Assembly: GCA_023259035.1 (NCBI GenBank)
Contig: JAHFRA010000013.1
Coordinates: 1-64,000, forward strand
Length of the DNA: 64,000 nucleotides
Direction: 5' to 3'
Source of the DNA: Gallionella sp.
Lineage (GTDB): Bacteria; Pseudomonadota; Gammaproteobacteria; Burkholderiales; Gallionellaceae
The notes beneath the pieces were generated by a model, which did no database searches, was not told the origin of the DNA, and saw only the letters and a list, made by a program, of their open reading frames with translations. Positions 54,837-59,451 of the stretch are shown one piece after another (the stretch's first letter is position 1; every line of letters starts with the position of its first letter). A program made the translations under genes and the position numbers.

Positions 54837-54842
54837 CGAGCC

Positions 54843-54888
54843 GTTATCGAACCTGAAGGTGACATGTGAACCTTCAGGGAGCGATAAC
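54843..54888. repeat. Long imperfect inverted repeat at the left edge of the defence-like island
   Basis: GTTATCG (54843-54849) pairs with CGATAAC (54882-54888), and CCTGAAGGT (54852-54860) pairs with ACCTTCAGG (54870-54878), around a 9-base loop. There is no T run. It may end the ABC transcript or mark an insertion junction. The rest of the gap to 55135 holds no gene I can support. Confidence 0.6.
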
Positions 54889-55135
54889 ACAGCGCGATTT
54901 TCGAAGAGATACAAATTAAGCTCGGCTTCGAATTGCAATGCCGTAAAGCTGCACTTCGTAAACGACGTGTCAGTGCCAGTTGCGGAACCTTAGCTTTGAC
55001 TGTTGATTTATAGATAACGAACATTGAGCAAAAGTTTATTGTGGCAAAATGCTGTATTAGTAACCCTTTGGTTTCGTGGGTGGGAATAAGTTACGGTCAA
55101 CATTGTTGAAAGAACGCGAAAGGTAACGGACGGAA

Positions 55136-56542
55136 ATGGAAAAAATGAACGTCGCGCAATTTGCCACTGAGCTAGGATTATCGATCCAATTATTATTGGA
55201 TCAGTTGAACGCGGCAGGAATATCCAAGCTGGAACCAACCGACTTCATTGCTGAAAAAGACAAGTTGCAATTGTTGATGTATTTGCGCAGTGCGCGCGTA
55301 GAGGATACTAAAGAAAGCATTGAAGAGGTAGGGGAAGATGGCAAGCCAGTCGGAGTTGAAGAGGAAACGATTGCGCTTTCTAATGAGCCGTTCGACCCTG
55401 ACTCCATTTCCATTGAGCCAAAAGTTGTCGCAATGGATCTCTTGCTCCGACGCTTAAGGCAAGGCTCAATAAGATTGGCACCAAACTTTCAGAGAAGATT
55501 CGTCTGGGATGAAGAGCGATGCAGTCAGCTTATTGAATCTCTGATGTTGAGGATTCCACTGCCAATGTTCTACGTTGCCGCCAACGAAGACGGGAGCTGG
55601 GATGTCGTCGATGGTCTTCAGCGGCTTACGACGATTCGTGATTTCTTACTTGGTGGAGAGATAGGCACGAATGGCAAAAAGACTGTTCCGGACGCAACTC
55701 CATTTGCTCTTACGAATCTCGAATTCTGGGGTGCTCGCTTCAATAATAAGACCTTTGCGGCAATAGAAAAAGATCAAGCGCATGCTCGAATTGTGAACAA
55801 CATCATGGAAACTGAGATGCGTTTCACGGTGATTAATCCTGGCACCCCAGAAGAAGTTAAAAGAAATATCTTTAAACGAATAAATACTGGAGGTATGCCA
55901 CTAACGGCCCAAGAAATTCGACATGCACTTTATCAAGGACAGGCATCAGATTTCTTGAAGGAGCTTGCAGTAAACGAGAAATTCTTGGCAGCTACCGACA
56001 ACTCGATTAAAGACAGCCGTATGGCTGCACGGGAACTCGTATTACGTTTCTTGGCTTTTTATATTCATGGTGATAAGCAATATACGGATGACATGGACGT
56101 ATTTCTCAGTAATACCATGAGAGTAATTAACCGTGCTCCACATATTACGGATGAAGTCATGAAGAGCATATTCCGCAATTACTCTACTGTAAAAATTCGC
56201 CCCTTTACCAGAGAAGTCCTAACAAGCAAATTCGAACTTGCCATGGAACGGAGCAAGATGTTTTTCAAACGTTACGCCTTCCGTAAGGCGACTCCAGGAT
56301 ACATGAGGACTCCGATTAACAAAGCATTATTTGAGTCCTGGGCCAACATTTTTGCAGAGATGTCGGCGGAGGATTTTGATGCTCTCTTGGCCAAGCAAGA
56401 CCGTTTCTATTCTGAATACTTGAAACTACTCAGAGACGATGAATTTGATAGGGCCATTAGTCGGGATTCCTCATCGGTTATTAGCTCGCTTAATCGCTAT
56501 AAAAAATTGCGAGAACTAATTAATAACACGTTAATAGGCTGA
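55136..56542 (+). CDS. DUF262 protein with an IF-2-like N-terminal domain
   Basis: A 468-residue protein. The N-terminus (about residues 1-55; MNVAQFATELGLSIQLLLDQ, LNAAGISK, EKDKLQLLMYLRS) closely resembles the N-terminal domain of betaproteobacterial translation factor IF-2. After an acidic linker (about 57-95) comes DUF262 (about 100-330), the ParB/Srx-like nucleotide-hydrolase fold of GmrSD-type systems. It carries NFQRRFVWDEERCSQLIESL (about 118-137) and VVDGLQRLTTIRDFL (about 157-171), where the usual DGQQR is DGLQR. The C-terminal part is helical. It is followed two bases later by an AAA ATPase gene. DUF262 proteins are common in defence loci; the N-terminal fusion is unusual. Confidence 0.88.
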   Translation: MEKMNVAQFATELGLSIQLLLDQLNAAGISKLEPTDFIAEKDKLQLLMYLRSARVEDTKESIEEVGEDGKPVGVEEETIALSNEPFDPDSISIEPKVVAMDLLLRRLRQGSIRLAPNFQRRFVWDEERCSQLIESLMLRIPLPMFYVAANEDGSWDVVDGLQRLTTIRDFLLGGEIGTNGKKTVPDATPFALTNLEFWGARFNNKTFAAIEKDQAHARIVNNIMETEMRFTVINPGTPEEVKRNIFKRINTGGMPLTAQEIRHALYQGQASDFLKELAVNEKFLAATDNSIKDSRMAARELVLRFLAFYIHGDKQYTDDMDVFLSNTMRVINRAPHITDEVMKSIFRNYSTVKIRPFTREVLTSKFELAMERSKMFFKRYAFRKATPGYMRTPINKALFESWANIFAEMSAEDFDALLAKQDRFYSEYLKLLRDDEFDRAISRDSSSVISSLNRYKKLRELINNTLIG

Positions 56543-56544
56543 AT

Positions 56545-57603
56545 ATGCTTACTGAAATCGAAATCAACGGGTTCAAGTCATTCAAGTCCAAACAGATTCC
56601 TCTTCGTCCTCTAACTTTATTGTGTGGTCTAAATAATAGCGGTAAGAGTTCGGTTATCCAAGCTCTCAGAATGTTCTGTAATAGCTATCAAGGTGACTCG
56701 CCCTTGTTAACGGGACATGGCTCAATTGAAGAGATTCGCTCACGTCTCGTCGCGCCGACTGATGCCATATCATTCTCATGCCGGAGTATTGAAAAGAGTG
56801 CGACATTTTCACTAAATGAAAATGTCTCAGTGAGGCCCGATTGGGCACCTTTGAGCTGCTATTTATCGGCTGATAGATGGGGCCCAAAAATATTGCATCC
56901 TCTGGATAGGCATTTAGGAGAACTCCCATCCATCGGGGATCATGGTGAATATGTAATTGGCTTCTTGGACGAGCTTCGATATCTCATCGTGCCAGATCAG
57001 CTTCATCATGAATTGGCTCAAGGTAAAATACTCGCGTATCAACTAGAAGCATGGCTCAACGAAATCGCTCCGGGTATTGATCTGTTCTATGAAACAGATT
57101 CAAAACGAGATTCTACACACATAGAGTTCAATACTTTTCGGCCAACGAATGTCGGTTTTGGCCTTAGCTATTGCCTTCCAATTTTTGCCGCTATTTTAGG
57201 GATGGCTTCAACAAGACCAGCTACCGGCTGGGAGAGTTCATGGGGGCCAAAATGGGAGGCCGAAAAGTCGAATCGGGGCATGCTCGTCATGATCGAGAAT
57301 CCTGAGGCCCACCTTCACCCGAGCGGTCAAACGGCGCTAGGTCGATTGATTGCTCTTGGCGCAAAGTGTGGACTTCAGCTAATCATCGAAACACAAAGTG
57401 ATCATCTTATGGATGGCATAAGACTAGCCGTTAAGAACGATGTTTTGACCCCAGACCAAGTGGCATTTCACTACCTGTCGATGACAAAGGAAGGTGAAAC
57501 AAATATCGAAACTCCAAAGCTTCACGCAAACGGGAAATTGGAATATTGGCCAAAAGGCTTTTTCGATCAGACATTGATTAACCGCACGAATCTGGCTCGT
57601 TAA
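56545..57603 (+). CDS. AAA family ATPase (DUF3696 type)
   Basis: A 352-residue ABC/RecF-like ATPase. MLTEIEINGFKSFKSKQIPL begins the fold and LCGLNNSGKSSVIQAL is Walker A (about residues 27-42). The Walker B and signature region is LVMIENPEAHLHPSGQTALG (about 248-267), followed by LQLIIETQSDHLMDGIRLAV (about 275-294) with the H/D switch. The C-terminal KLHANGKLEYWPKGFFDQ matches the DUF3696 end. It resembles OLD-like and Septu-like defence ATPases but lacks a TOPRIM domain. It lies in the middle of a three-gene unit with DUF262 upstream (2 bases) and a HigB-like protein downstream (8 bases). Confidence 0.88.
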   Translation: MLTEIEINGFKSFKSKQIPLRPLTLLCGLNNSGKSSVIQALRMFCNSYQGDSPLLTGHGSIEEIRSRLVAPTDAISFSCRSIEKSATFSLNENVSVRPDWAPLSCYLSADRWGPKILHPLDRHLGELPSIGDHGEYVIGFLDELRYLIVPDQLHHELAQGKILAYQLEAWLNEIAPGIDLFYETDSKRDSTHIEFNTFRPTNVGFGLSYCLPIFAAILGMASTRPATGWESSWGPKWEAEKSNRGMLVMIENPEAHLHPSGQTALGRLIALGAKCGLQLIIETQSDHLMDGIRLAVKNDVLTPDQVAFHYLSMTKEGETNIETPKLHANGKLEYWPKGFFDQTLINRTNLAR

Positions 57604-57611
57604 GTCATGTA

Positions 57612-58499
57612 ATGGAACACAATTTTGTATTCAATACACTTAGCTTTCCTGCTGCCAGCAAAGAAGAAGCATATAGACTGTTGTTGGATTCTGCAAAGGG
57701 AATGCTTGCAGTTCGCTCTAACAAAGATCGTATTGCGATTTATTCAGATGACCGTGACAACTGCCCAATAGCACCGGATTATTATTATCGCGACTTTATT
57801 TCACAACTTGGAGAGCAGCATGAGGATGATCTTCAACTTTCCCTTATGGAAATTGACGATAAGACGCCAATGCTTGATTGCCTCTCCGATGAGCTCTTTA
57901 ATGAAATAGCTTCATCTACCTTTTATTTCCCCAATGAAGCATATGATGGCTCCGTTGATGTTTTGGCTATGGCTTGGCACCTTGATGCCACTCTACTGAG
58001 TATCGCAACAATAAATAAGTGGCGGGAAAATGAAGTTGAATTTGCGCAATTTAGTGAGGGTCAGCCACCCACTGGACGCTCATATCTTCGCAACATCTCG
58101 TGCGAGGAGCACGGAAATTTTATTAGGCAACAATATCTAGCTGAAGCTGAGACCCCGTTAGAGAAATTGTTCCCAAGGTGTCTATTTAGCCAGGATTTCT
58201 TGGCGTGGGTTCATCAGCTACCCAATGATGTTTTAAAGCGTGTTGTAAATAAAATTACCTTGGCTGATGCAAAGCAATTCCAAGGTGGAGAGCCACTCTT
58301 CAAAACTCTCCATAATGCTGATGGAATCCGTGAAATTCGATTCAGTGCAGTACAGGGCGGCGCAGTTAGGATTTTATTCCGAGTGCTTTTAGGCAATCAG
58401 TCAGCGATCCTTTTCGGATTTATTAAAAAGAGTGATAACGAAGGCTACGATGAGGCCATTGAATCTGCAAAAACCAATTTGAATCGGATACTTCAATAG
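57612..58499 (+). CDS. Protein of unknown function with a HigB/Gp49-like C-terminal domain
   Basis: A 295-residue protein. The first about 195 residues match nothing I know; they are acidic, with no membrane segment. The C-terminal about 95 residues resemble phage Gp49/HigB (RelE-superfamily) toxins: LKRVVNKITLADAKQF, GIREIRFSAVQGGAVRILFR, NQSAILFGFIKKSDN, EAIESAKTNLNRIL. These toxins are ribonucleases acting on translating mRNA. No XRE-type antitoxin gene is adjacent. As the third gene of the DUF262-ATPase unit it may be the effector, restrained by its own N-terminal domain or by the ATPase; that is inference. Base composition is AT-richer than the surroundings. Confidence 0.82.
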   Translation: MEHNFVFNTLSFPAASKEEAYRLLLDSAKGMLAVRSNKDRIAIYSDDRDNCPIAPDYYYRDFISQLGEQHEDDLQLSLMEIDDKTPMLDCLSDELFNEIASSTFYFPNEAYDGSVDVLAMAWHLDATLLSIATINKWRENEVEFAQFSEGQPPTGRSYLRNISCEEHGNFIRQQYLAEAETPLEKLFPRCLFSQDFLAWVHQLPNDVLKRVVNKITLADAKQFQGGEPLFKTLHNADGIREIRFSAVQGGAVRILFRVLLGNQSAILFGFIKKSDNEGYDEAIESAKTNLNRILQ

Positions 58500-58899
58500 C
58501 TTTCTGGATTTCCCTCACTTTCGTAGACACGTTCTGAATGTCTGGTTTCGGCAAAACTGAACTTCTGGAATGTGTCGGGAACTGCCATTCGCCAAGTGCA
58601 GACTCCGGGCAACCTGAATAAAATTCCTGAGTGAAAACTCGGATGATGGCTTTCTTGCTGTAAGTTCAGCGAGTCGAGTAGCCGCAAGGTGCCAAGCGTC
58701 CCTTCGTATTTCCTATTACCGGGAATTCGCAAGCTGTCAGCGCTGTTGCGTAAGCAACAGAGAGCTCTCGAAAACTTGTCTCGCAAACCTCGTTATATCT
58801 TTCTCCTCTTGACGGCATTTCGCCATGAGTGCACCATTTAAAAAGCAATGGGCAAGAAATACTGTTGCAATTCATTAACAACAAAAGGGGATTAAGAAT
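58500..58899. other. 400-base region without a supported gene
   Basis: A small perfect hairpin (CTGTTGC-GTAA-GCAACAG, 58743-58760) is present. A 97-codon minus-strand frame (58493-58786) has unnatural composition and no domain. Composition and odd motifs suggest a non-coding repeat or remnant at the right edge of the island. Nothing else is recognised. Confidence 0.5.
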
Positions 58900-59208
58900 A
58901 TGTTCAACAAGCTTCTATTATCAATGGCGATGATCGCGTCAATGTCTTTATTTCCGCAAGTATCATTTGCAGAGAATGCAAATTTTGGCGGCAAATCGGA
59001 ATCGCTAAGCCCGGAGGACAAGTTTGCCGAGGTGAAGCAGAAAGCTGAGGCTGGCAGTTCAAAAGATCAATTAAGTCTCGGCCGGATGTATCACAATGGT
59101 GTCGGTGTAGCCAAGGATGACGCAAAGGCGGCGGAGTGGTGGAAAAAAGCGGCTGCGCAGGGTAATGAAATCGCGCAGGAGGCTCTCAAAGGCCTTAATG
59201 CAAAATAA
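58900..59208 (+). CDS. Small secreted Sel1-repeat protein
   Basis: A 102-residue protein. The signal peptide MFNKLLLSMAMIASMSLFPQ VSFA ends at Ala-Glu (cleavage about residue 24). One and a half Sel1-like (TPR-type) repeats follow: EAGSSKDQLSLGRMYHNGVG and VAKDDAKAAEWWKKAAAQGN (about residues 53-93). It is periplasmic. It is shorter than typical Sel1 proteins and may act as a small adaptor. AAAAGGGGATTAAGAAT supplies the ribosome site. A terminator follows the gene. Confidence 0.88.
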   Translation: MFNKLLLSMAMIASMSLFPQVSFAENANFGGKSESLSPEDKFAEVKQKAEAGSSKDQLSLGRMYHNGVGVAKDDAKAAEWWKKAAAQGNEIAQEALKGLNAK

Positions 59209-59242
59209 ACATTCAGTTCCAGGGAAACGCTGACAAGTAGTT

Positions 59243-59285
59243 AAATGACGGCTCCGCGGCAAGCTGCGGGGCCGTCATTTTCTCT
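59243..59285 (+). terminator. Terminator after the Sel1-repeat gene
   Basis: AATGACGGCTCCGC and GCGGGGCCGTCATT form a long stem (one mismatch) around GGCAAGCT, followed by TTCTC. It is 35 bases past the stop. Confidence 0.75.
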
Positions 59286-59451
59286 GTACGATTTAAACTC
59301 CAAGCGTGAAACTATATCGGTGTTGCAGCTTTACTACCGTTGAATTTCAACTTTTCTGTTGACGGCTTGCGCAGTAAGTCACCTTCCCTGATGCGCGAGC
59401 GTGGCGCTACCCGTATAATTCGGCCATTGTAAATTCAAGTGGCTGCCGATC

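Follow-up and report, generated by a model that had tools for sequence, protein, structure and literature searches.

We analysed a stretch of 64,000 nucleotides (nt) from Gallionella sp. (the window: positions 1 to 64,000 of contig JAHFRA010000013.1, assembly GCA_023259035.1) and found that three of its genes, nsnA, nsnB and nsnC, form an operon of the anti-phage system Menshen. The operon belongs to a rarer subtype with a Gp49-type NsnC, and the N-terminal domain of the host's own translation initiation factor 2 (IF-2), hereafter the tip, is fused to its NsnA. We propose that the tip may act as a host-matched tag for docking at the ribosome, or as bait, on an abortive-infection system.

Menshen was reportedly described by Millman et al. 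in 2022, and the assignment of the trio to this family is practically certain from profile matches: NsnA matches the PADLOC model PDLC03877 (NsnA) at E 1.1e-126 over residues 59-466, NsnB matches PDLC03878 (NsnB) at E 3.1e-93, and NsnC matches PDLC03894 (NsnC) at E 1.3e-91 over residues 1-294. The sequence-only reading had called the trio a candidate undescribed defence system of three tightly spaced, AT-rich genes for a DUF262 protein, a DUF3696-type ATPase and a protein with a HigB/Gp49-like C-terminus. Indeed, the list of open reading frames (ORFs) places the genes on one strand with spacings of 2 nt (nsnA-nsnB) and 8 nt (nsnB-nsnC), and their G+C content is 41-48% in 500-nt windows, compared with 50-63% upstream (49.5-54.75 kb) and 48-62% downstream (59.25-62.25 kb). 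Pfam likewise finds GmrSD_N (DUF262, 6e-28) in NsnA, AAA_15 (2e-22) and DUF3696 (7e-12) in NsnB, and Gp49 (1.2e-10, residues 199-290) in NsnC. The PADLOC matches uphold the call of a defence system; the word 'undescribed' had to be given up in view of these matches, a review of Menshen and the published description of ptuXYZ. The candidate is thus settled as Menshen, with ptuXYZ indicated as the same thing, and what may be new about it is the IF-2 tip. For the trio proteins NCBIfam gave no match at its cut-offs and the best PHROGs matches are all of 'unknown function'; searches of Rfam and of PDB sequences yielded nothing useful. Coordinates are collected in Table 1, where pLDDT stands for the predicted local distance difference test.

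Table 1. Features of the trio and its surroundings, in positions of the window
Feature	Position	Strand	Description or basis
nsnA	55136..56542	+	468 aa DUF262/GmrSD_N protein; DGLQR motif = residues 159-163; model mean pLDDT 81
IF-2 N-terminal module on NsnA (residues 1-57)	55136..55306	+	Identity to host IF-2, hidden Markov model, tree, structure model
nsnB	56545..57603	+	352 aa DUF3696/AAA_15 ATPase of the ATP-binding cassette (ABC) type
nsnC	57612..58499	+	295 aa; Gp49/HigB/RelE-like C-terminal domain at about residues 185-295
AT-rich insertion holding the trio	54837..59451	.	Flank neighbourship in same-genus loci and G+C profile

The IF-2 tip and its apparent repeated capture

The N-terminus of NsnA had escaped the sequence-only reading: its residues 1-57 are the N-terminal domain of IF-2. 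A hidden Markov model (HMM) of 28 true IF-2 proteins scores the tip at 71.3 bits (E 2e-21 for the searched set of ORFs), and residues 1-50 match Pfam IF2_N at 4.6e-5 with 23.5 bits, just below the 25.3-bit cut-off. The tip is about 60% identical to the IF-2 of the host, whose gene lies elsewhere, on contig C34; 15 IF-2 proteins of the genus average 83% over the same stretch. With a G+C fraction of 0.44 it resembles the rest of the trio, the corresponding piece of host infB being at 0.49. Among 200 genomes of the order, only that of the window has more than two IF2_N matches, of which IF-2 itself gives up to two. In the structure model of NsnA, residues 1-50 form a compact helical domain (pLDDT 85-92), followed by a low-confidence stretch at residues 55-84, as might be expected of a tethered module.

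Could the fused segment be an expression leader, in which the ribosome-binding site and first codons of infB improve the translation of nsnA and the folded tip stays idle? The likeness to host infB at the nucleotide level does start 12 nt 5' of the nsnA start codon (66.5% over 164 nt), as such a leader would have it. However, the tip keeps its helices and is confidently modelled, and a second capture, described below, takes in about 100 residues including IF2_assoc. The YN00 estimates of non-synonymous (dN 0.47) and synonymous (dS 0.88) divergence also suggest some constraint, on a short stretch for which NG86 gave no dS value. We therefore consider a leader improbable.

How common is the tip among NsnA proteins? 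We scanned genome contigs with an NsnA alignment and combined the best 80 of 417 confirmed stretches, which come from many phyla, with six loci from a viral scan and one Acinetobacter plasmid into a set of 87 loci. The IF-2 HMM finds a tip in only 2 of about 146 NsnA-like loci, the window and locus L159 of a Thiotrichaceae metagenome-assembled genome (72.8 bits), and none in the other 86 of the 87 loci, which include L159, nor in 58 further NsnA-like loci; about 119 of the 146 have NsnB beside NsnA, the sets may overlap and a few N-termini end at contig edges. A single-sequence search with the tip returned 0 matches, and the L159 fusion was seen by eye before Pfam and the HMM confirmed it. Its capture spans about 100 residues through IF2_assoc (Pfam 6e-9 and 8e-9) and is 63% identical over 68 residues to the IF-2 of its own genome, compared with 30% identity between the two tips. 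We rejected the reading of L159 as a Menshen insertion into infB, since integrase-like and TraI-like ORFs (named by eye) lie upstream and the IF-2 start of that genome is found at the end of another contig, after nusA.

The two tipped proteins do not group as sisters in a tree of 37 NsnA cores; with respect to the other Gp49-type rows, the well-supported branches force at least two changes (ungrouped rows uncounted), and support is only 94/77 at the node that unites the window with its sister group. A tree of 33 IF-2 tips, for which 17 of 18 newly fetched stretches were usable, places the window tip inside the family (97/97) and genus (87/84) of its host and pairs the L159 tip with the IF-2 of its own host (99/92). 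Counted against every other row, this tree requires two changes, and the split between its halves is supported at 100/100; the stretch is short and single nodes need care. Because the trees place both NsnA cores and both tips apart, two independent captures, each of the IF-2 tip of the own lineage, would be the simplest reading.

Domains seem to be exchangeable at the NsnA N-terminus, as other NsnA proteins bear different N-terminal extensions. One (L165:4458-6137, also L238) has a domain of about 180 aa resembling, by eye, the N-terminus of the neighbouring gene L165:8069-9196; another (L099:1338-2627) has an extension of about 55-90 aa before the core, and those of L130 and L131 have about 260-280 aa ahead of it.

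The tip is also found outside NsnA. Plasmid pBPHY01 of Paraburkholderia phymatum (L243:4001-6085, a record without annotation) encodes a 694-aa AAA_15/OLD-type ATPase with an IF2_N plus IF2_assoc N-terminus. In the genus of the window, a short separate protein (L138:2977-3756) carries an IF-2 N-terminus followed by DUF4145 (Pfam), a family counted as HEPN in a passage of PMC3710099, and a second short protein (L137:1860-2549) seems truncated, Pfam finding IF-2 parts only; the neighbours of both look, by eye, like housekeeping genes. With NsnA twice, the Paraburkholderia OLD-type ATPase once and the DUF4145/HEPN-type proteins of the genus, the N-terminal domain of host IF-2 may be a module that immune proteins capture repeatedly and that works as dock or decoy, a generalization for which we put the chance just short of even.

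Several further matches were discarded. The short IF-2-like ORFs in genomes G487, G496, G500 and G507 follow a nusA-like ORF and are infB genes cut by contig ends or frame breaks, and the Niveibacterium and Amphritea plasmid matches follow rimP or rimP-nusA and were read as true infB. In place of a fusion, the UNVERIFIED record of Pseudomonas phage Y6 (L297, OQ572408.1) has a nusA-like ORF followed by a complete IF-2 of 840 aa; these two genes look like bacterial chromosome. For plasmids, three of the 11 rows of one list were opened (one fusion, two infB), and the rest, together with the rows of a second list, were judged by annotation or record size; for phages, one record was opened, and some of the others are annotated as IF-2. 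Two scans of viral contigs found no IF-2 tips, and the search of phage records found no tip fusion among the matches opened or annotated. Literature searches, which did not cover the two main Menshen papers, returned nothing on IF-2 N-termini in defence.

A possible role for the tip in a putative abortive system

By the C-terminal 115 residues, 111 third genes divide into a main cluster of 87 and a Gp49 cluster of 8, to which the window belongs, plus small rest groups. In L171, a ninth locus of the Gp49 type, a separate ORF carries the domain; NsnC of this locus is split into two ORFs in the record, possibly by a sequencing error, and the pieces were kept apart. In L164:7304-8107 NsnC ends in DUF4160 instead of the Gp49 or main type. 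Both tipped NsnA proteins pair with a Gp49-type NsnC, an association with a chance of 0.006 across all typed loci, which is suggestive.

The AlphaFold model of the window NsnC (7 sequences, mean pLDDT 63) is fairly reliable from about residue 181 (block means 70-93), where the order b-a-a-b-b-b-b-a is close to the RelE topology given in Gerdes 2025 (PMC11980606). A PDB fold search returned chains of RelE/HigB/ParE-type toxin-antitoxin entries as the best 11 matches, two of them at E < 0.001; they include a Streptococcus pneumoniae toxin-antitoxin module (6af4), HigB2 (5ja8) and RelB-RelE (3bpq), and four of the 11 carry only the name 'Toxin-Antitoxin module from Streptococcus pneumoniae'. NsnC and three single-domain Gp49 proteins of the order share E-x-R, the R of (V)RILF and the K of GFIKK; three further rows of the alignment had been mis-extracted and were left out. 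The sequence-only reading had staked its proposal on a RelE/HigB fold for this C-terminus, and the predicted fold and shared residues therefore speak for it. Cami1, seen bound to the 70S ribosome, offers a precedent for a RelE-like effector with ribosome docking; its own fold match to NsnC (E 0.23-0.27) is far down the list and is not evidence.

We also weighed the reverse assignment, in which NsnA would be the killing enzyme, a ParB/Srx-like nuclease along the lines proposed for PtuX in Gerdes 2025, and NsnC the sensor. Gerdes 2025 terms PtuX a putative nuclease in its section on the system (PMC11980606), NsnC occurs with several C-terminal types, and it is the most divergent protein in comparison with the Acinetobacter trio (25% identity versus 44 and 40% for NsnA and NsnB). 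However, Pfam finds no DUF1524 in NsnA, and in GmrSD-type proteins, as stated in part of a review (PMC10952713), DUF262 is the NTP-binding part and DUF1524 the nuclease. As the NsnC C-terminus moreover keeps RelE/HigB-type residues, NsnA as the killer seems unlikely to us.

In the mechanism that we favour, NsnA (DUF262, with a ParB-like nucleoside triphosphate pocket) and the ATPase NsnB would sense infection and then release NsnC, whose RelE-like domain would cut mRNA on the ribosome, such that growth would stop before phage is made. The tip, on a presumably flexible linker, would dock the complex at the host ribosome, a known partner of IF-2. The working model of the sequence-only reading, with sensor, switch and abortive effector, is plausible. 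For this mechanism as a whole, comprising Menshen sensing, a RelE-type effector and the tip, we see the chances as evenly balanced; docking at the host ribosome is tentatively the most likely role of the tip.

The main alternative for the tip, a possible but rather unlikely one in our estimate, is an integrated decoy: a phage protein would attack IF-2, and the copy on NsnA, like those on the OLD-type and HEPN proteins, would be bait whose binding or modification triggers the system. In favour of bait, the tip occurs on these unrelated defence-type proteins as well, and the NsnA N-terminus, with other extensions on other NsnA proteins, has a swappable look. The kinase of phage T7 reportedly modifies translation initiation factors. 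Dock and bait both need a host-matched sequence, and the trees show such matching: each of the two tips is nearest to the IF-2 of its own host, as matching to a real target demands, but docking accounts for this equally well. Moreover, a phage factor against the IF-2 N-terminus was not found, and a literature search on T7 kinase gave nothing on point.

Several observations weigh against the favoured mechanism. The window NsnB reads ETQSDH (residues 282-287; 57388-57405), with Gln at the position of the ABC-type switch His (ETHSDH), which is occupied by His in every one of the 113 other NsnB ORFs that showed the motif (81 + 32 ORFs from two sets with possible overlap; 8 NsnB ORFs lacking the motif were not scored). 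Because Gln replaces the switch His, the ATPase may be slow, altered or dead. The N-terminal half of NsnC is poorly modelled. Within the 19-row subclade the tip-Gp49 association has a chance of 0.21 and is not significant, two rows being without a known third gene. NsnB stands beside NsnA in only 5 of the 20 order-level stretches with NsnA matches at E <= 1e-40, a few of which end early; the NsnA model therefore picks up other DUF262 genes as well. Finally, a tip on an OLD-type ATPase and on a HEPN protein is not needed for delivering RelE to the ribosome.

Could the copy in the window be decaying and inactive? The Gln at the switch, seen in no other NsnB scored, would fit, but the three frames are open and tightly spaced and the conserved motifs of NsnA and NsnC are kept, and we regard decay as quite improbable. 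The Walker A motif of the window NsnB (GLNNSGKSS) is kept as well, judging from the alignment. In L156 and L159 NsnB is split into two ORFs in the records, possibly by sequencing errors; the pieces were kept apart.

The repeated capture of the host IF-2 tip by defence proteins offers a clue to the way in which Menshen detects infection or finds its target. If true, as dock or as decoy, the tip would be the first known fragment of a translation initiation factor that anti-phage defence employs for guarding or targeting; as a decoy it would parallel the integrated decoys of plant immune receptors.

Distribution and genomic setting

An NsnB ORF lies downstream of NsnA in 83 of the 87 loci, and of the four loci without it three are truncated by the contig end; 80 of the 87 have a third gene. 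In an earlier set of 39 loci, including the window, NsnA and NsnB occur together in 36, of which 32 have a third ORF; one, resembling a transposase fragment, was dropped. The co-occurrence across genomes by which the sequence-only reading wished to be checked is thus seen in these sets, but not in most of the order-level stretches mentioned above. At E <= 1e-40, 19 of 399 genomes of the order have an NsnA match; at 1e-70 the numbers are 8 of 369 for the class and 25 of 398 for the phylum, the genome of the window included. The P0003 search of phages and viral contigs gave nothing useful.

The trio sits as an insertion in a variable slot that is bounded by genes for an ABC permease and a HemJ-like protein (both named by eye). 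The upstream permease gene is present in 34 other genomes of the genus, and stretches for the best 24 were examined. In 16 of these the HemJ-like gene follows the permease gene, the gap being 12-193 nt in 15 of them and 1,373 nt in one, compared with 4,615 nt, holding the trio, in the window; in the other eight HemJ was not seen there, in three because the stretch ends early. None of the 24 loci has trio genes within the up to 1.5 kb examined. No convincing pair of repeats flanks the insertion, and no other defence genes are evident beside the trio in the ORF list, no PADLOC scan of the whole window having been made. The insertion also holds a small Sel1-like ORF (by eye, 58900-59208). A 26-nt inverted repeat (85%; 57972-57997 and 58672-58697) lies between nsnC and the stretch after it, and a strong, terminator-like hairpin (59243-59280; 18-nt arms, 2-nt loop) lies 3' of the Sel1-like ORF.

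Comparison with known systems

The trio shares with Menshen its three genes, their order and their families (PADLOC). It differs in the IF-2 N-terminal module of NsnA, in the Gp49-type C-terminus of NsnC, in the Gln at the NsnB switch and in an NsnB without a TOPRIM match, an OLD TOPRIM domain being tied to one Menshen component in part of a review (PMC10952713). The ptuXYZ system, described in section 26 of Gerdes 2025 (PMC11980606), brings together a DUF262 protein and a PtuA-like ATPase with a third protein whose C-terminus is BECR/RelE-like. The word Menshen is absent from the main text of that article by text find; ptuXYZ and Menshen appear to be one system under two names. The window NsnC has such a C-terminus by Pfam Gp49 and fold search, whereas the IF-2 tip goes unmentioned in section 26; where the third ptuXYZ protein has a PIN-like N-terminus, residues 1-12, 82-96 and 98-179 of the window NsnC are modelled at pLDDT < 50.

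Other families are set apart by their domains. The DUF1524 HNH nuclease domain of the GmrSD, BrxU and SspE type IV restriction systems was not found by Pfam in any trio protein. Unlike an OLD-family nuclease, the window NsnB has Pfam matches to ATPase/P-loop families, DUF2813 and DUF3696 and none to TOPRIM. A HigBA toxin-antitoxin pair would have a single-domain toxin, whereas NsnC is a two-part protein, and the ORF list shows no + strand ORF of at least 60 aa for a HigBA-style antitoxin between nsnC and 58900. As for IF-2 itself, the match is limited to the N-terminal 57 residues of NsnA, in which the GTPase and C-terminal domains are not present.

The closest comparisons are two trios with a Gp49-type NsnC. 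That of Acinetobacter sp. NEB 394 (L153), at the identities given above, lies on the 14.7-kb plasmid pBspH4, directly adjoins brnT/brnA and has an NsnA without the IF-2 tip. The Thiotrichaceae trio (L159, JALSLM010000109.1) does share the IF-2 N-terminus on NsnA, and differs in its longer capture (IF2_N plus IF2_assoc), in the IF-2 lineage from which this was taken and in an NsnB recorded as two ORFs.

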